Positions 27,549 through 53,600 of a stretch of DNA of 64,000 nt are shown in pieces. The notes under the pieces were generated by a model that had not been told where the DNA came from, ran no database searches, and saw only the letters and a list, made by a program, of their open reading frames with translations. Numbering within the stretch: the first letter of the stretch is position 1; the number at the start of each line of letters is the position of its first letter. Origin of the DNA: Antedon mediterranea (taxonomy: Eukaryota > Echinodermata > Crinoidea > Comatulida > Antedonidae); contig NC_092676.1 in the NCBI RefSeq assembly GCF_964355755.1, positions 17,404,288 to 17,468,287 on the forward strand. The letters are read 5' to 3'. A program made the position numbers and the translations under genes.

Positions 27549-30500
27549 ATGGATACGACTAAGAAAGCAACAACATATGGCCAGGTTGTGGCTATACCAA
27601 TCACTGAAATGGCTTTCAAACACTTCACCAATGCCTCAAGGATTTGGCCATATCAAAACATTGATGACTCTTTGATTTCTGTTTGCATTACTTGTGGAAA
27701 AATATCTCAAATTACCCAGGAGGCAACATCTTCTAATCCATCAGAGACATGTCAATGCATTCAATTTAAAAGTTTTGGTTTCCTAAATAATATCACATTC
27801 CATGTTGCGAAAATTCCACTGGAGAAAATTAGGAAAAAACGCTTATCACCATCACAGAGGTTGGAAGACGTTTTACTAATGATTTTTGACAACAAAAAAA
27901 TACCTATTAACGATGATATGAAAGAGAAATTTCCCAAAAACTGGGAAATTCATGGAGACTTGGTTTTATTTCCGTCAAATTGCTTCAACAATGACATCTG
28001 GAATTCAATGACAGTTGAAGATTGGCAGAAGGTGTTGGTAGCAGTCGGAGGGAAGCGCTTGGCTCGTAGTAGGGGTGGTGTGCACAGTGATGGCTTCAGA
28101 ACACCAAATGTTGAGTTACTATTAGGTGATAGTGGATGGGTGCAGCATATTGATAATGGTATTAGGTAATTATGTTATTTATTGTTTTTAGTAAAACAAT
28201 TTTAAAGAAATATATTCATACTTTCACATTTCATCCAACCAATTGAATTAGAAAACGAGATCAGTTATCACAACCAGCAAATTAAAAGCTTTGTCTTGAC
28301 TGGCAAACTTTATGTGACAACAAATATGATATGATATGATGCCTATATATGGACATGATGAAGTCTTATCACTACCATATCTGGACATATATAACACTTT
28401 TTTTGTCAAACTAATTTGACAGTGTAGACAGAGCTTAAGTTGTATTACAATTGTAAAAAAACATTACCTCTAAACCTTGGTTCTCACTAGGACGCAGTGC
28501 AAGGACGTAGGCACAATGCAAGTAATTTGACCAATCACAAAGCTACGAATTATTATAATCATGTCATTGGTCAACTGGCTTGTGTTGCACTTATGTCCTT
28601 GTGTTGCGTCCTAATGAGAAATGAAATGAATGTGAGGCAATATAAATGTTTAACCACCAGCTATCCAGAGGACACCCCTATTAAGGTTACATGTTGTACT
28701 GAAGGATTCTAAGTGTAGTTTTTAGATGCATTCTCGGCTTTAATGCATTGTATTTTTCTATTACAGATACAGTTTCGATATCACAAAATGCATGTTTTCC
28801 TCTGGTAACATTACCGAAAAAATAAGAGTGGCAAATATGAATTGTGATGGAGAGACAATTGTGGACTTGTACGCGGGCATTGGTTATTTTACACTACCAT
28901 ATCTGGTACATGCGAACGCAGCATTCGTACACGCCTGCGAGTGGAACCCAAATGCTATTGCTGCCCTCAAAAGAAACTTGGTGTTGAACAAAGTACAGGA
29001 CCGGTGTACTGTTTATGAAGGAGATAATAGACAGGTGTAGTAACAAAACAAGTCTTATTTAGGAGACACTTGGTTGTGTCCTTAAACTTATAAGGCCAAC
29101 ACAGACAGCGTTGTACGACTAGTCGTCTCTTTGGGATAAAAATTAAACATGTTTAAAGTTCTCCAATAAAAACTATGCGCGTAGCTATTCAACTGAGACA
29201 GCACTGACAAGTCAAGACATTTCGTCAGGCCATGTCGTACGATGCTCTCTGAGTTACGATGCTCTCTGAGTTACGATGCTCTCTGAGTTACGATGCTCTC
29301 TGAGTTACGATGCTCTCTGAGTTACGATGCTCTCTGAGTTGGCCTAAGTATCCCATTAATAGGAGCTCTATTGTAATTAATCACATGACAGTTTGGATAA
29401 AATACAGTAAAACCCTCGTTTGGAAAACCCCTATTCAGGGGACACCCCTTATTAAGGCGACACTTTACCATGAAACAAACAGGAGAATTGTATGTTTTAA
29501 CACTACCCTTATTAAAGGGGCTTGCTATTAAGGGGATACTTTGTTGTATCCCGAAGGTGTCCCCCTTAAAAGGGGTTCTACTGAAGTACATACCAAAAAA
29601 AAAAACGAGGGGCATTATATATTTTAACACTACCCTTATTAAAGGGGCTCGCTATTAAGGGGACACTTTGTTGTATCCCGAAGGTGTCCCCTTAAAAGGG
29701 GTTTTACTGAAGTAAATAACAAACAAAAAAAACGAGGGGCATTATATATTTTAACACTGCCCAAAGGGGACATGTCTATTAAGGAGACATTTTGTTGGAT
29801 CCCAAAGATTTCCCCTTAAATGGGGTTCTACTAAAGTACATACCAACATTTGTTCATGCTTGGATCCCACTTGGATGCAACACAAGGATGTTAGAACTAA
29901 TTTGACCAATCATGACGCTAAAGGATAATCCAAAAGGTTTGTGATTGGTCAATTCACCTATGTTGTGCCTATGTTATTGCATTGCATTCAAGAGGGAATC
30001 AAGTCTTAATATGTTCTACACAAATACTTTTTTCTTTAATTTTCAGATATGTCCCAGTGAAGTAGCAGACAGGGTTAACTTGGGGCTTATTCCAAGCTCT
30101 GGTGCAGGATGGCCAGTTGCTTGTAAGGCTCTAAAAAAGAAGGGTGGTATACTACATATACATGGCAATGTAACCAGTCTACCTGCAACAAAGAATTCCT
30201 CCAGTCTGCCGCAATCCAGCAAACTTTCCATGTCACCTTTTGTCCCCGAAAGTAATGCATTGATTGATAATTCTTTAGCCATTGAAAGAGATGTTCAAAT
30301 GACTGAATCATCGCTTTCTTATGCCTTTAGCGTTGGGCACTTAGAAGATAAAAACTTGCCTTCTTGCAATCCAGAAAATGTTCCAACAAAAAAAGCAATA
30401 CCAACTTGCAACTTAAGCAATACGTCATCAACAGTTGCTAATGTCAAGGCTCAAACATCAGTTGACACAAGTGCCCATAGTTCAAATGATTGTCACATGC

Positions 30501-31030: not shown

Positions 31031-31034
31031 TGAG

Positions 31035-31386
31035 TTAAGGCTAAACTGAAAGCAGCCAGATTAAACAGATTGAAACAAGTTTAGGCTAAGCTGAAAGCAG
31101 CCAGATGAAACAGGCTAGAGCGAGTTTAGGCTGAACTGAAAGAAGCCAGATAAAACAGGCTAGAATGAGTTCAGGCTGAGCTGAAAGCAGCCAGATGAAA
31201 CAGGTTAGAACGAGTTTAGCCTGAACCTAAAACAGCCAGATGAAACAGGTTAGAACAAGTTTAACCTGAACTGAAAGCAGCCAGATGAAACAGGTTAGAA
31301 CAAGTTTAGCCTGAACTGAAAGCAACCAGATAAACAAGCTAGAACGAGTTAGGCTGCACTGAAAGCAGCCAGGTGAAACAGAAATC
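31035..31386 (+). repeat. Tandem repeat of about 44 bp, roughly eight copies
   Basis: Units of the form ctgaactgaaagcagccaga followed by tgaaacaggttagaacaagt are repeated with scattered changes directly after the SINE downstream of TYW2. The unit is not a multiple of three and no frame is conserved. Confidence 0.85.
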
Positions 31387-38687: not shown

Positions 38688-41600
38688 CTTCAGAAATGAA
38701 ATAAAAAATACATAAAATTAAACACATTATCATCAAGTAAATAACAAATGTGGGATAAATATTAATCAAACTGAATGCAAGTGATGAAAAAATAAGATTC
38801 ATCTTAAACATTCAACTTAAATATTCACTAGAGAAGTAGTTTGTCAGTTCCAGCTATGACATAAACGTGTATATTGTATAGATGGTTAATTGCAGGGTAA
38901 CAAATTTGTAAAAAAGTAAATGAATGATTTATATAGGGTGATTGGTGATCCAATCCTGACCTAATGCCAGTGTTGTAACTCATGACTCAACTCCACTCCG
39001 TAAGCCTCAAATGAGACTTAGCATATAAGCATGATAAATTATAAAATAGTTTATCCTTTAATTGGTGAGTTACTCCTTGTTGGATTTTTTTTTTTAAAGT
39101 AAATTATTATATTGTACGAAGTAATGAAAAAATAAGAATTATCTTTAAATAACATTCAATTAAAATATTCACTGGGGACGTTGAGGAATATTAGAAATGT
39201 GGTTGTTAGTTCCAGCTACAATACAAACGTGTATATTGTATTGGACGGACGGCTTAACTGCAGGGTAACCCACTTTAGTAAAAGTAAATGAACGATAATA
39301 GGGAGCTTTCGATTTGTAACAAGCTACAGTAGGACCTAGGCCTATGCATATTATGTCATTGGTTATTGAACAGAACTGTGTCAAGGAATTGCATGAGGGA
39401 AGCATGTTCCAGTTCCATTGCATACATTCTCTGAATCAAGATTACATAACTAGTTTCCAAGCCCTCGCAAATTGAAAGCTCCTTGTGAAACATCACCCAA
39501 ACTAACCTCTGTATATTTTGAAAAATCTTGTGACTTTTCCCAAGGTAGAAAACTGCCTTCTCTGTAGAATTGCTGTCTTTGTTTGGCTAACTTATCCAGC
39601 TGCCTTTCATCAGCATCTTCACTAAAAATATTTGCTAAGGGATCTGAATTCTGCTTCAACAAGTCTTTCTTTGCAGCAATATCAAGTATATCATGTGTAA
39701 CAGAATCCTGCAATATCCTCATTTTTACTAATTGTTTAGATTGTCTCTGAATATTGGATTCCTTTAGTTGTCCTATATGTTCAGCAATATCTGTATTTAA
39801 TAAATTTAATTTTCTACTTGATCTTTGCGATTTCTCTAAATTGAAGGCTGATATATTCTTTAAAATTGTTAAATTATTATATAGTGTTATGTCATTCTTT
39901 ATATGATCATTTTCATATTTATAATTCTGTTTTATTAAAAGTTTTCTCATTCCCGGATGAAGGTTTTGTTCATTATTCTGGTTATCTTTTTTCTCATTAT
40001 CTATTTCTTGATATTCAAAATCAACCCCATCCTTTGACTTTCTTTCATCTAAATTGTCATCTTTTAATATATTATTCATTTTAAACTCATCTTGATCTAA
40101 GTCTATTGGATGAGCATTTTGTTTATTCATTTTGGGTAAAACTTGACCATTCATAACTGGTTTATTTAACTGTTGCTGTACAAGTTCAGCCATATTCAGA
40201 TTTTCTTTAGCCTCTTTAACTGCTATTTGATTCTTGTCATCACCAATGATATCGGTATCATCAACTAGTTTCTGATTGGTTGCGTCCTTATCTGCATTAT
40301 CTTTTTGCAGGTTAGGATTCCCACCAGCAACATTAACATCATGTACAAAAATTTTCGGATCTTGCTGTTGGTCTTGTCTCATCTCAAACTGATTAACACC
40401 AACATTGTGTGGTTCAACTGGTTTCTGTGGGTTACCATCAATTTGGTCAACCGGTCTATTACCAATTTGTGGTTCAACTGGTTGTTGCGGATTAAAATCT
40501 TTAAATTTATTACCACCAAATTGGTCAACAAGGCCAGCTTTACCAATTTCTGGCTCAACTGGTTTCTGTGGGTCTTGAACTTCTTTAAACTGGTTACCAC
40601 CAATTTGGTCAACAAGGCCAGCTTTACCAATTTGTGGCTCAACTGGTTTCTGTGGGTCTTGAACTTCTTTAAACTGTTTACCACCAATTTGGTCAACAGG
40701 TCTATTTTTACCAATTTGTGGTTTAACTGGATGTTGTGCATTAAAATCTTTAAACTGGTTATCAACAAATTGGTCAACTGGTCTATCATTACCAATTTGT
40801 GGTTCAACTGGTTGTTGTGCATTAGAATCTTTAAATTGGTATACAACCCCAGCAAATTCATTTTGCTTAATTGGTATTTGATTTGCAGCAGCAGCCCCAT
40901 GTGCCTCCTCCCCTTGATGTTGTTCATTCTTTGATACCTGTTTATTATCAACTTGTTTACTGGGTTCTTTGACAACTGGCACTATTTTACCAAATGCATC
41001 TAGCTGAATTTTGTCCTGATTATCATACTGCATTTTTGCATTATCATTAATTACAGGTATCTCCTGTTTGCGTAAGTGGAACTCATCTGCTTTAGGTTGC
41101 ATATGTTTAATTCCATCTTTGTCAGATTTTTTATTCCTACTTTGTTGTTTTCCTTTAGATAAAGGTGTTTTTTTCGCCTTACTGGACAAGTAATTATATA
41201 TTAATTCAGCCTTTAATTTGGTAAAACCTTTCTCAGTTAAGTCTCCTGCAACATAAAACATTCAATAAATAATTATTAAATAAATTATTTAAAAAAAAAA
41301 CATTGCATCTGTAACTTGTCCTACACTATTAAAGTCTCCCTCAGAATTGTTGATGTAGATGTTGATATTGTAATGTTCCAAGACAGGACCATATACGGTA
41401 CTTTACTATGAATATTCAGTATAAATATTTAATTTTTCTCAACATGTGTTCAACTGGTCAACATGAGCATTTGGAGAAACTAAATGAAACTGGCCTCACA
41501 GTTGCGCAAAATATGAGTGTTTGTTGTAAGTTTAACATAACCACAACTACTACGTACAGAAAGTGATCTAAAGTGAAAGAAACTAATCACTTCTTTCAAC

Positions 41601-44600
41601 TTTGGACTCTTTGCATGCACAGCGTTAGTTACCACATGACCTGTAACAATCAGTTCAATGTCAAAATGAGCGTTCCCACAAACTTGATCATTTCAGTTAT
41701 ATTCAAAGTTTGCAACTAGTTCCTTTCAGTGATCTATTATAGCCTTTATAGATATTATTATACAAATAATGAATGTTTATGAGTGCAATGGTACAAATAA
41801 TGGCACGAGGTGAATGATGAAAGGTTATATCAACGAGGCAAAGCCGAGTTGATATAACCTTTCATCATTCACCAAGTGCCATTATTTGTACCATTACACG
41901 AATACAAAACATTCATTATTTGTTTTATATAACATCTAGACGTTTTTTTTCGTACACAAAAATGTTTCAAAAAGTACTATTTAACGATCGTTGAATAGTG
42001 CGTACTATTGCACGCCATGTGACCCACATTCGTCCAATCAAATGACAGGAATTTATATAGGTGTTATATAATAGTAAATATTGTTACCATCACTTAGTTG
42101 TTTTTCTAGTTGCTCCAGCTGCTTCTGAAACTCTGGGGGAAGCTGTTGTTCACCAATATCAGGGACATCTTTATTGACAACATCTTTATTGATTGCACGT
42201 GGTCCACTGTAAGAAGGAAAGACTCTCAATAAAATGCAGAAACAGAAAAGGAAACAATATGATGGTTATGATGGTAATAACATTTTTGTAATTTTTTCAT
42301 ATTGTAAAATAGTGGTAATACAATAGATCTCTGGTATTTTTTATTTTCATCTCACTCAGTTAAAAAAAGTGAAATATAATACAACAAATAAGTATAGTAA
42401 CCACAACAATGTTTATATTGTAATACAGTATTACATTATCTAATTTGATTTAATTAGAAAATTGGTGTGAAACCCACTTATAATACAGTAACATGGTTTG
42501 GTCAAATTCTAAAACTATAAAGCAAATCAACACAAACACACTTCAAACCTTTTTTCAAAAAATGTTTTGTTTCAAACCTTTTTATTTAACTTTTTGCATT
42601 GGAAATTTTAGTTTGTTTCTATTTCTACATATAAAGTGGCTACACCACCTACAAATTTTTTTGTAATAATACATATAAAGAAGCTTTATTTAAAAACAAG
42701 AAGTAAAATAATAATATACTAACATTAGATTTGAGTCAAATTCTTCAAATACAAAATTATCTTCCTCTGTTTTGGTGTTATTCTTGCTATCGTTCTTGAT
42801 AACCATCAATGCCCTCTCTGCTAATGGTATTGTGTTGACAGTTACATTAAATGTTACCTAAAATACAACATTACAAAATCACTCAAGTAAAACCTTCAGA
42901 ACCCAACAATGTCAATAGGGTGTCCATTCAATAGGAGGTGTCCATTCAATAGGAGGTGTCCATTCAATAGGAGGTGTCCATTCAATAGGAGGTGTCCATT
43001 CAATAGGAGGTGGCCATAGTGTTAAAACATTGCTCTTTATTCATTTTATTTATTTTCATTTATTCATTTCCCAACCAACAGTGAACTCATGGTTCACCAC
43101 TTACAGGAGGGAACATTTCACAGACATTTGTCCTCTATAATAATAATGTCCTAAATGACGGTTCTAATGTATAAGGTATAAAAGAACAACCACTTTTGAA
43201 AAAGGTGATCAACATGTATTAATGCTTTCTTGAAACTGAACAATATCATTCTTCTTGGTGCATAAAAAACATCAAAACTTTAAATGTTGAAATCAAAGGT
43301 CAAATTCTTGGTATAAATGCATTTTTCACGATTAAATCTAAAAGTACATTAAAGAATAATTGAAAAATTTTGAATGGTGTAAACTTGCCTAAAGAACACT
43401 ACTTACATTTAACCCAGATCCATCCGACTTGGTTCCTTCTACAAAGAACGAAACATTCTGCTCTGTGTGGTTTTTGTATAATACTAGATGCATTGTTTTG
43501 AATTTTTGTGCAATTGTTCCTGTTCGTACAATGTTATTATTGCTGTAGTAACCACTGGCGATCGTACCATTGTTTCCAAACATAGATGTTACATTGAAAT
43601 ATCCAACTTGAACACCTAAAAATACAAATCTTTGGCATTAAAACTACACGCTAACTGGCTATGTTTATATATGCCTAGAAAAACATAAATAAACAATGAT
43701 ATAATATGTATATTATTCAGCAGGAACAATTCTTTAATTGACAGACTTTTTTCATACTCTGTATTCATTTAGATACTTTCAATTCCACTAGTACCAACCT
43801 TTTGACCTCTAGAGTGTGTTTAGAAGTCATCCGGCCATACGTCATTCCAAACATGACATCATCCAACTCATATTAGTACTGTACCTTTCATGACAACAAT
43901 GTCCATTATTTGTTGTATAATAATATACACGGTGAATATACAATTTACCTTGTGGCATGGTGATGATTTGTCCAGAGTACTTGATTTCAGCTGAGAACAG
44001 CCTGTGTAAATTCTTTGAGCCACAATCTCCTGCATCAAAACCGCATTCAGGGATATTACAAGACTGAAAAAAAAAGTACATTACTAAATGCAAATTGTAT
44101 AAATTATGCATGTTGGAATCTATGGAACGCCTCCTCTGCCTTCAGTTCACATTTATCATGCAGTACACACCAATCGTCATGCAGTACACACCAATCGTCA
44201 TGCAGTACACACCAATGGTCATGCAGTACACACCAATCGTCATGCAGTACACACCAATGGTCATGTAGTACACACCAAACATCATGCAGTACACACCAAT
44301 CGTCATGCAGTACACACCAATCGTCATGCAGTACACACCAATCGTCATGCAGTACACACCAATGGTCATGCAGTACACACCAATTGTCATGCAGTACACA
44401 CCAATCGTCGTTCACATTTATCATGCAGTACACACCAATCGTCATGCAGTACACACCAATTGTCATGCAGTACACACCAAACATCATGCAGTACACACCA
44501 ATTGTCATGCAGTACACACCAATCGTCATGCAGTACACACCAATCGTCATGCAGTCAAATATTGCGTAATTTATACCGCCACCTATCGACAAAATCGAAT

Positions 44601-47600
44601 ATCACGTGAGGTTTATTAGACGGCTGTAAAACTAAGACTATTTAAACTTCTTTTATGGAATTCAATAATTGCAATGGCCTCCTAGCCGCGCCTGTGTCTC
44701 GCATAATAAATTATTGTATATATAAAAAAACAGAGCATTCACAGAGATGTGTAGCGGTTAAAATAAGTACAGTATGTCAAACATAAAAGAAATCTTAGAG
44801 TCGATGGCCTAGTTTTACAGCCGTCTAATAAACGTCACGTGATATTCGATTTTGTCGATAGGTGGCGGTATAAATTACGCAATATTTCACTGCATGACGA
44901 TTGGTGTGTACTGCATGACGATTGGTGTGTACTGCATGACAATTGGTGTGTACTGCATGACCATTGGTGTGTACTGCATGATGTTTGGTGTGTACTGCAT
45001 GACGATTGGTGTGTACTGCATGATGTTTGGTGTGTACTGAATGACGATTGGTGTGTACTGCATGACCATTGGTGTGTACTGCATGACGATTGGTGTGTAC
45101 TGCATGACCATTGGTGTGTACTGCATGATAAATGTGAACGACGATTGGTGTGTACTGCATGACCATTGGTGTGTACTGCATGACCATTGGTGTGTACTGC
45201 ATGACCATTGGTGTGTACTGCATGACCATTGGTGTGTACTGCATGACGATTGGTGTGTACTGCATGACGATTGGTGTGTACTGCATGACCATTGTGAACT
45301 GAAGGCAGAGGAGGCGTTCCATAGGAATCTACTCAAATGTTAAGGCTGGAGCGCTGCAAATAAAGTCTGAGGCTCCTCAATCAAATTTCCTCAAAATTGT
45401 CAATGATAAAAAATGGGAATAAAGTAAATCCAATAGAAATGTATGATGTACTTTCTTCACAACTTAATACATGAATTGAATTGAATTGAAATTTATATTT
45501 ATACTGGGTAACCTCTTCAGTCAAAGACTGGTCTCCCAGAGGGCCCAGTTGGTGATCAGTGGCTGTGATGTACTAATACACCGGGGTAACCCCCTACTCG
45601 TCTCGAAAGATGTACTAGGTTCTTTAAAGTGCACACGAGCTAGATGTGTACACTGGATCTACGGTTTATAGTCCTTATCCGAGAAGACTCGTTCTACCAC
45701 CAGAACATGCACAAACAGTTTCTGGTTTATTACGTTGCACCTACCAAGTCTCTTAGGTCTGTTGATCATGTGATATGATAGCAAACACTAGACAGACAAT
45801 TTTCAAGAATATTCCCATTTAGGTATACATACCTGATCACAGTATTTATCAGCAATCCAGCCATTTGCACAACCAGTGTTACAGTACACTGAAATAAACA
45901 GATTAAGTTTTAATGGTGGTCCTGGACGACTCTATAAAATTTTGGAAGTAATCCAGACCAGGATCCCAATTCTGGGCCACTTTTTATTATTTTACTAAAT
46001 TTAGGCTGTATATCTAAACTACAAAACGGATCTTTAGCAAATGTAAACCACAGATAGATATGTGGTCACAAAAGACTTAGGAGGCAATCTGGACCAGGAT
46101 CCCAATTCTGAACCACTTTTTATTATTCTACTAATTTCAGGTCGTACATCAAAACTACAAGGCAGATCTTTATTTTTTTTCACTTTATACACTTTGAGAC
46201 ATTTCAGAATTATATATTATTTAAACTTGCTTTGTTCCAGAGCAGCTCCACCAGCACCACCTCCAAAATGGCCACCAGCACTAGCATGAACACCTATAAA
46301 ATAACAATTTTTTTAATCAAATTGTTTAAACATAATCTAACACTTATAGGATTCTTCTGATGAAGAAACATAAAACGTGTCTAAAATTAAAGGTATGTTG
46401 AATTTTATGCTCTTAGTTTGTTTAAAAAAAATGTACAATCCAGTATATTCTTCAGGGGAACCAGAGCCAACATCATTGTGGATATATAGTAGCACCTATG
46501 TTCTCTATTTTTGACACTTGATAAACATTACAGATAAAATTATAATCTCTAAATAAATATATATTATTACCTTTACAATCTCCACCATCCCAGTCACATT
46601 CTGAGGTATTGCAAGCTTTATCACAATAATTATCTTTGATCCAAGATGAAGGACACCCCTCTGCACAATTTGGAACAGGCCATGTCAAATAAACCTAAAC
46701 AAAGTCGTACCATAGTTTGTTTTTATCACAAAATATAAACATTGATTTATAATCAGAAATGCTCTATGGAACTTAAAAAGCAAAGAGCTTGTTACACTTT
46801 TAAAAATACTTTATTCATTCTCACTTATTTTTTTGCAAAAACCCTGAGAAACTTAATCTTCAATACCTGATGCGGGTCTACCAGACCAAAAATTCAAACA
46901 CTAGGGTAGTAGGGATGACGTAAACAAAGTTTAGGGGTGGGTGGGATAAAACAGTACTTTTATTAGATTAGTGCTGTATTGTATGTTGATATAAAGTTTG
47001 TGGTAAAACATGTATGTAGTTCTGAAAAGAACTGATCAACTGAACATTTTGATCAATTTGATTTAGTTATTCTGAGGAGTTAGAATGCAGAAAGTCCATG
47101 AAATTGGGGAATATAAGTGATATTGAGTGGGATAGGTGTGAAAGCAAAGTGTGAGCCTTGCTCACTGGGTGGAAAGCTGTGAGCTGTAGGCTGACATTAA
47201 GGAAGAAATTAAATTAATACATTCTTAGGTAATCTTTAAGTTAAAAAATTTTGCATTTTCTGTAAAAAGTAAACTTTTTCATACTTTGCATTCATTTAGA
47301 TACTTTCAATTCCACTGGTACCAACCTTTTGACCTCTAGAGTGTGTGTAGAAGTCATCCGGCCAGACGTCATTTCCAAACATGACATCATCATTGAGGTA
47401 GATAAACTTTTTAGACAGCCCAGGGATCTGATGTAAGTGGCTCTCAATGGCAGGAGAGCCAAATGAAGGCAGATGTGACTGGTTTTGAAAAATGTCCTAC
47501 ATTGAAGATACAAATAGAATAAGTAACTAATTACTATCTACATTCAATTCAATAAAACTTTATTATCCCAAACTCCGGGGAACAGTTATTTTCAGAACTA

Positions 47601-50600: not shown

Positions 50601-53600
50601 ATTATAGCATGGTTTATTTTTGCTTCCTATTTTAATGGCCTACAGTGGCTTCCAGTCCAAGATTTAATAAAATACCGAATCAGCAGATTAATTGGTTAAA
50701 TAATATTTGTTTTAATTTAGAACAAATATAAATGAATTTTTTTTTATTATGAATTATGTAATAGGTCAATGATTAACATTGCATTCAACTTTGTGAGGAT
50801 TTAAATTTAGACGCATTTTAATCAACAAACACTAATGTAAAGTGAAGTTACCAATGTCATAATACTATTATTATTTATTCTAAATTACTCCTTGATACAA
50901 ATTGGGGGAAACCCAGGATTTTTGCTGAAAAGTTACATTTGTTTTGGCCTCACAAGCGATTGAAAAGTGGGTCAATTACAGAACAAAAACAAAAATATCA
51001 ATTCATACGCAATGCGTGTTGGGATTTATAGCGGGCCGCTAAAATTATTAGAATCGTCTTATTTTTCACATTTTTAACCATTTAAAGATGAAAAAAGTTA
51101 TCTCAATAGGACCATACAATATTTATTTTTACATTTAAATGTAGGTTGTGACCTTAAATTAGATCTAAAAAATGTAGGAAATTGGACTTTAATTCTTTAA
51201 AAAAACCTATCTTGTTTATTTAAAATATTTTTCCATCTATGGTTTAATCACACTTCAACTCATGAATAATTCTCACATTCAACTCATAAACATTCATTGT
51301 ATACCTTAAGCAAAGACAAAGAAACAAAATAATAATAATATAAACCATACCTTCTTCCTGATTTGAAAACTCTGCCAATGTATATGTTGGTCCAGCTTCC
51401 TTATTTACAGTCATATTAAATAGTCTTGTCATTTTTAAGAATGTTGGGTTATAAATTGACAACTCTAAACTAGTTATAGCTGATGGAAGAGATCTACTAA
51501 AAATTAACGTTTTAGCAGTGATGCAATTTTTCTTTTTACAATACACATATCTGAAAAACAGAAACAGAGTTATATTTGTAGTGGAGCTGTAGCTTGGTGG
51601 TTATCATGCTTTCCTTTCAATCCCTAGCTCCAGGGTTCAATCCTGACCTAGTGCCAGGATTGTAACTCACAACTCTTTCAACTCCTCTCTCTAAGCCTTT
51701 TATTGGAAGTACAATTTTATCCTGTAATTGGTGAGTTTGTGCTCGCTGTTGGATTTGTATGAACAAAAACAAGGCATTTTTTCTGTAAGAATTGACAAAT
51801 TGTTAAATTTATATGAAGCTAAAAAATTACAATTTCAAACATTTATATTTCTTTATTAAATTAACAAATTCAAATTTACTTTTTATATATACTATAATTT
51901 ACAAAATTGGAAAATATAAAACAAAAATATAATAACTAAAAAGATATGACAATAAAAATTATTAATATAACTATTATTATTAATATCATCATTCAAATAT
52001 TTATGTTTAAAATTGTGATTAGAGAGTTTAGTGGCTTGTGGCCGGTCAATTAAGAGAGCAATACACTATATAGTAATAGCACATTAAAACATGAGATTTA
52101 TAAGGTACAGTACACTGTACCTACATTACTGCAATGAGCCAGATGTCTTTATGGCTTAATTGCACAATTCTTATTGCTACTTATTATAATTTTTTTAGGA
52201 TAGTCAAATCTCTTGGAAAGCTGACACATTCAAGATAGGAAAAAGTGTTGGATTATGGTAGATGTCTACTTACAAGAGTTAATGAATTCAAAACTAAATA
52301 TTAAAAAGTATTTTATTACACAAATGAGAAAAAAGCAGTTATAATTATATTTTACCTATCAAAAAGGGATGTGCATGTCCCTAACTGGGTTAAGGGGGGG
52401 GGGGGGGAGTGGAGGGGCAAGCATTATTATAGTGTAAGTAATATCAATCTAAAATATCTTAAAGCAGAAGCAAGTACGGTAGTTTATTAGTGGTTTATGG
52501 CAATGTGAAACTGAACTCGCTTAAGTTGACTATTCATGCAACTGAACGAAATTGAACTTTAGAGTGTCGACAATAGAATGGATTCTAACTAGGCATGTGT
52601 ACAACACAAAAACTCATATTTATTATTTAATATATTTGTGACAACAAACAGATCGTGGTTACCCCGAATCACATGCATGACACGATTATAAAGTTTTCAG
52701 TTCCAGAGAGAGTAAACCATGTTCACCTTAACTGAACTACACATGTCAACTAATTTTGCTTTACTGTAAGCTGTGGTCAGTTACTTTGAGTTGCGGTCAG
52801 TTACTTTGAGTTGCGGTCAGTTACTTTGAGTTGCGGTCAGTTACTTTGAGTTGCGGTCAGTTACTTTGAGTTGTGGTCAGTTACTTTGAGTTGCGGTCAG
52901 TTACTTTGAGTTGTGGTCAGTTACTTTGAGTTGCGGTCAGTTACTTTGAGTTGCGGTAAGTAACAGTACTTTGAGTTGTGGTCAGTTACTTATAGTTGTA
53001 TATTATGTTTAATTTAACAGTTTGTTTCAGATTTGAAAAAAAAGAATGAACAGATAACTTACTGTGTTCCATTTTGAGATAAAATACCATTGCTATATTA
53101 AAAGAAATAGAAACATTTTAATAACTACACAGATCAAAAAATTAATTGTACTACTGTATTTGCTTTCATTCTGCTTTTAAAATAAAATATTATTACTGGC
53201 TCAAGTCTATTCTAGATAGATTTCACAAACTTTTACAAATACAATGAAAATGAGTTTACTATTGATCCTTACCTAGATGAATTCATAGTAAGAGCTACAT
53301 GCTTTGCTTTGACTGTGTTTAATTCTTCTATAAGCCTAGAGTCAGACCCATTGACCCATGTATAAACAATATCAATTGGAATTGGCAAACACATTCTGAA
53401 AATTACAGAAAAAAGACTACAAATCATAAACAACAACAAATTCCAAAACTGAAGACTCCCCTCTGTGATGTCTTTCTGCGAAGAAGCTGACGATTGACTC
53501 ATTTTAGAATGAAAAGTGTAATAATATTTTAACATGTACTGTACTGGGCGATACTGGGTGTAGGCCTAGATTAGTTAGTATCGTGACCAGATAACTTTTT

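Follow-up and report, generated by a model that had tools for sequence, protein, structure and literature searches.

We analysed a window of 64,000 nucleotides from the crinoid Antedon mediterranea (NC_092676.1, positions 17,404,288 to 17,468,287 of the forward strand) and found that an intron of GNPTAB carries what is probably a young, non-autonomous, cut-and-paste foldback DNA transposon, most likely an IS3EU element, inserted at the hexamer GGAATC. The whole non-autonomous foldback element spans 1,203 bp (44121-45323, no strand assigned; all positions are those of the window unless stated).

Inverted-repeat and tandem-repeat finders recovered paired arms built from a 21-bp unit, in agreement with a first-pass annotation of the same DNA that had described a large inverted repeat of a 21-bp minisatellite. 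The outer 24 bp, TATGGAACGCCTCCTCTGCCTTCA, are present with 0 mismatches at 44121 (plus strand) and 45323 (minus strand), and no further match was found in the window, where none was expected. The annotation had placed the inverted repeat at 44120-45324; its matching outer ends are real, but the element is bounded exactly by 44121 and 45323. The insertion is flanked by an exact 6-bp target-site duplication, GGAATC (44115-44120 on the left and 45324-45329 on the right, neither with a strand), and, given this duplication, the ends of the element are TATGG..CCATA. The leading C of CTATGG, which had been read as the element end, belongs to the left duplication, and the duplication is the 6-mer GGAATC rather than the 4-bp gaat proposed earlier. 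The left outer terminal repeat (44121-44152, plus strand) is TATGGAACGCCTCCTCTGCCTTCAGTTCACAT, and the right one (45292-45323, minus strand) ends in GGCGTTCCATA; the family end sequence is also denoted TATGGAACGCC.

The left arm array, type A (44156-44555, plus strand), consists of 12 full 21-bp units, a spacer (44408-44420), 6 full units and a partial unit, while the right arm array, type B (44889-45288, minus strand), contains from the outside in 7 full units, a spacer (45129-45141), 11 full units and a partial unit. The two arms together contain 36 full units (up to 3 mismatches) vs 0.01 expected, and a chance origin of the structure was rejected. The arms had been called unequal, which is correct for the arrangement of units (12+6 on the left and 7+11 on the right) but not for the totals: each arm has 18 full units, and the arms differ only in the position of the TCGTTCACATTTA spacer. 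The arrays are followed by inner inverted repeats of 79 bp, of which the left one (44556-44634, plus strand) begins with CAAATATTG, the marker of arm A, and the right one (44810-44888, minus strand) with GAAATATTG, the marker of arm B. Between them lies a middle domain of 175 bp (44635-44809, plus strand).

Searching the genome (354 Mb in 18 contigs), we found 224 matches to the terminal 24-mer with up to 3 mismatches (114 forward and 110 reverse), while the reversed control gave 0. With both classes of flanking base counted, the genome contains 190 exact 21-bp ends. About a hundred recent copies of the element are scattered through the genome, and at least 40 copies of the central 333 bp are 99% or more identical. 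Exact 6-bp target duplications were identified at 32 copies, none of them longer; among these duplications there are 30 distinct hexamers, in which G or C predominates at the first and sixth positions (40/60, p about 1e-7). Moreover, four loci (L007, L008, L012 and L015) contain nested copies, each inserted inside another family copy. When the nested insert and one duplication were removed, the resulting junctions were found uninterrupted in intact copies in all four cases, i.e. as exact empty sites; thus, insertion with a 6-bp duplication is directly shown. In total, these observations demonstrate that the element is a transposon, as the first-pass annotation had proposed; that annotation had named a lack of further copies of the termini as evidence against a transposon, and the search had the opposite outcome. 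Long inverted arms with tandem repeats around a middle domain, together with multiple dispersed copies with target-site duplications, are the features of the foldback class, and the element shows both.

That a minisatellite was duplicated in inverted orientation within the intron, without a transposon being involved, deserves practically no credence: an array and its inverted copy can be produced by local rearrangement, but the structure is shared by scores of unrelated loci, along with target duplications and the empty sites of nested copies, and this multicopy spread refutes the local reading.

Several loci depart from the standard form of the transposon. Mini copies of 112, 261 and 288 bp (L081-L083) keep their target duplications, and therefore either a small number of repeats suffices for mobility or these copies were trimmed after moving. 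Two insertions on C5 (L051 and L052, at 13.23 and 14.11 Mb) have an identical duplication and near-identical flanks and represent one insertion in two duplicated segments; 5.06 and 9.6 kb, respectively, separate their ends, with a non-LTR-like fragment inside. Dense family clusters are present at C5:28664609-28676851 and C6:29762662-29768193, apparently as copies within copies. At L032 (1501-3024) a family outer end is followed by a longer and more diverged array and then by an unrelated inverted repeat. Finally, at L089 (1-170; C10 from 395650; minus strand) there is a matrix-metalloproteinase-like gene with a HELGHTLGLSH-type exon and a hemopexin domain, the last open frame of which enters a decayed family end, which adds the tail WCVLHDECELKAAEAFHS, and takes its stop from flanking DNA. 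On this frame evidence, the tail may represent exonisation of the decayed end.

To map the arrays, we coded unit variants by letter, with S for the spacer. Nearly every copy has one arm similar to aabaadaaabca-S-aadcaa and a second similar to abbba-S-babadadbcaa. Either arm type goes with a particular marker at the inner border (CAAATATTG or GAAATATTG), and array lengths vary among copies by a few units. The map of the left arm of the window copy is identical to that of one arm of L003. The mirrored array lengths had previously been attributed to change at this locus after the inversion formed; this does not hold, because the two arm types with their own maps and markers recur across copies of the family, and the mirrored arrays characterise the whole family, having been established in its founder. 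The arms are not homogenised, and the arrays drift through small gains and losses. Because the spacer GTTCACATTTA repeats the border between the outer end and the array, amplification of the array probably began from the segment adjoining the outer end. The same maps bear on an assembly artefact that would have joined two arms. Long inverted repeats are difficult to assemble, but each arm has an array map and a border marker of its own, and the A/B pairing recurs genome-wide; since the two-arm structure is found at dozens of loci, we consider an artefact extremely unlikely.

We measured divergence on the centres of 20 sampled copies. On average these centres differ by 0.28% (maximum 0.9%), and 59 of the 190 pairs have no substitution. 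Because the centres are this similar, we conclude that the transposon family is young, and it may be active now.

The middle domain contains a TATA-like stretch (about 44715-44730) and an ORF stub of 12 codons (44774-44809, plus strand) with a stop codon at the inner-repeat border (through 44812). It reads TATATAAA, then ATG TCA AAC ATA AAA GAA ATC TTA GAG TCG ATG GCC. A cousin sub-family, B, is represented by at least 11 full centres; pooled over copies, its centre reads ATG GCT GGC AAA ACT ATT AAA GAA ATC TTG GAA TCT ATA and encodes MAGKTIKEI-ESIG. The stubs of the two sub-families have 5 differences over 8 shared codons, all five of them at third positions, a pattern with a probability of about 0.001 by chance for that frame. 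Several sub-family B copies have a stop within the stub. The middle probably represents the promoter region and first codons left from a transposase gene by internal deletion, and the likeliest reading of both centres is that they derive from autonomous elements by internal deletions.

The termini of IS3EU elements are TA..TA and their duplications are usually 6 bp long (PMC10045372), and several fungal IS3EU families end in TAYGG..CCRTA with 6-bp duplications (PMC12730594). The present element has TATGG..CCATA at both ends, which fits TAYGG..CCRTA at every position, and its duplications are 6 bp (32 exact, 0 longer). The copies seen are non-autonomous, and searches of the genome, which were not exhaustive, revealed no autonomous partner combining the family ends with an IS3/IS481-like DDE transposase. 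In the long copies L051 and L052 as well as L078 (3.2 kb) and L079 (2.3 kb), we found no intact transposase-like frame, and the DNA between their ends is captured or decayed. The matches listed in a search with an IS481 transposase model were mostly retrotransposon-type integrase frames. An integrase and OTU gene (L053/L073) was considered as partner and rejected, being without matching ends; at L073 (2600-5300; C7 from 21684000) integrase-core and OTU-protease frames lie side by side in a Ginger-like arrangement, and matching ends were not detected there. Patterns that continue the reading frame of the relic beyond the junction of the deletion had zero matches in the genome, the variant ends TATGGAACGCCTCCV had 5 matches, one of which is a decayed family end, and did not lead to a partner, and among half-matches of the sub-family B centre L090 and L091 show no coding continuation.

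Because no transposase linked to the ends was found, the superfamily assignment is based on the ends and the duplication length, and the sequence signature points to IS3EU. This signature could in part be mimicked by hAT6 elements, which have 6-bp duplications, or by other groups. Mutator target-site duplications are about 8-11 bp. We regard it as unlikely that the family is a foldback of another cut-and-paste superfamily, e.g. a hAT with 6-bp duplications or a new group, with IS3EU-like ends arising by chance. The lack of a transposase for the family is compatible with such an origin, foldbacks are commonly assigned to Mutator or P and most described ones are of these types (PMC4079207), and hAT groups with 6-bp duplications exist (PMC12730594); but duplications of exactly 6 bp exclude a Mutator foldback as well as P-type foldbacks such as Galileo, the duplications of which are 7-8 bp, and the agreement of the termini with the IS3EU consensus extends throughout.

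For an IS3EU foldback, we propose that an IS3EU-type transposase supplied in trans would cut at the TATGG..CCATA ends, and that the cut ends would be joined to the target strands with a 6-bp stagger. The arms would have formed as a subterminal 21-bp unit was amplified into arrays. In Galileo, tandem repeats of the TIR carry binding sites for the THAP domain of the transposase in vitro (PMC3688188); by analogy, the 21-bp arrays probably multiply transposase-binding sites. Slippage or unequal exchange would add units to the arrays or remove them, with each arm keeping its own identity, and internal deletion of an autonomous parent would leave the 175-bp middle with the promoter region and first codons.

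The host intron (44064-45832, minus strand; 1,769 nt) has, as read from the sequence, its acceptor AG at 44065-44064 and its donor GT at 45832-45831, and 68% of it is filled by the element. It separates two exons of an LNR domain, and the flanking exon ends, of 18 and 15 residues, spell 33 residues across the intron. These exon ends, and Pfam matches to LNR and to both halves of Stealth_CR2 in neighbouring minus-strand exons, support the earlier identification of the gene as GNPTAB. The long GNPTAB open frame (39453-41261) also contains 84-bp tandem repeats (40459-40848), which give 28-residue protein repeats, and further tandem arrays in the window are located at 29238-29340 (17-bp unit), 31032-31381 (45-bp unit), 42919-43017 (18-bp unit) and 52775-52991 (20-bp unit).

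The predicted RNA fold of the element is a single hairpin with 1,066 of the 1,203 bases paired and a minimum free energy of -955 kcal/mol vs -371 +/- 9 for 12 dinucleotide shuffles; thus, the model bears out the proposal that the arms would be able to pair as dsRNA, as a structural capacity. Host effects of the element on dsRNA, editing or splicing are possible. The stability of this predicted fold, together with the position of the nearer end of the element 56 nt from the splice acceptor, would also fit a functional hairpin that is retained because it yields small RNAs, serves as an editing substrate or regulates GNPTAB splicing; but the element was inserted recently and hardly differs from copies at other loci, and we consider a retained function very improbable. 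Long near-perfect intronic palindromes are likely sources of dsRNA and rearrangements, and Galileo copies are sources of inversions.

Sea urchin TU elements are similar to this family in that the outer domain of their foldback arms contains short tandem repeats, but they have 15-bp units and 8-bp duplications. Tetris, a foldback of Drosophila virilis, is also non-autonomous, and its arms have flanking, tandem-repeat and inner domains around a non-coding middle; by contrast, its unit is 220 bp, its duplications are 8-10 bp and it has few complete copies (PMC4079207). Galileo, a P superfamily foldback of Drosophila, has long inverted arms with variable internal tandem repeats, arm variation among copies, and subfamilies (PMC4168063, PMC3688188), but differs in its 7-8 bp duplications, P-type transposase and other ends. 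With IS3EU/GingerRoot elements the family shares the TA..TA termini, the TAYGG..CCRTA form of several fungal families and the 6-bp duplications; by contrast, the long minisatellite foldback arms are particular to this family and not described in the passages on IS3EU that were consulted (PMC10045372, PMC12730594), and no transposase was found with the family. We found no report of a foldback IS3EU element in the open-access literature covered; the only paper there that names both 'foldback' and 'IS3EU', a satellite-DNA survey, does not describe such an element. The kind of transposon is therefore known, while its foldback hairpin form seems undescribed within IS3EU. We put at about even the chances that the family is a recently or still active IS3EU foldback lineage in which minisatellite arms originated independently where none had been described, with two arm types of distinct repeat maps and arms derived from an amplified subterminal transposase-binding unit. 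Near-identical copies with differing array lengths provide a natural series for asking whether repeat number governs mobility and, if the assignment is true, the existence of a young foldback family that bears the IS3EU signature would mean that this architecture arises repeatedly in unrelated superfamilies.
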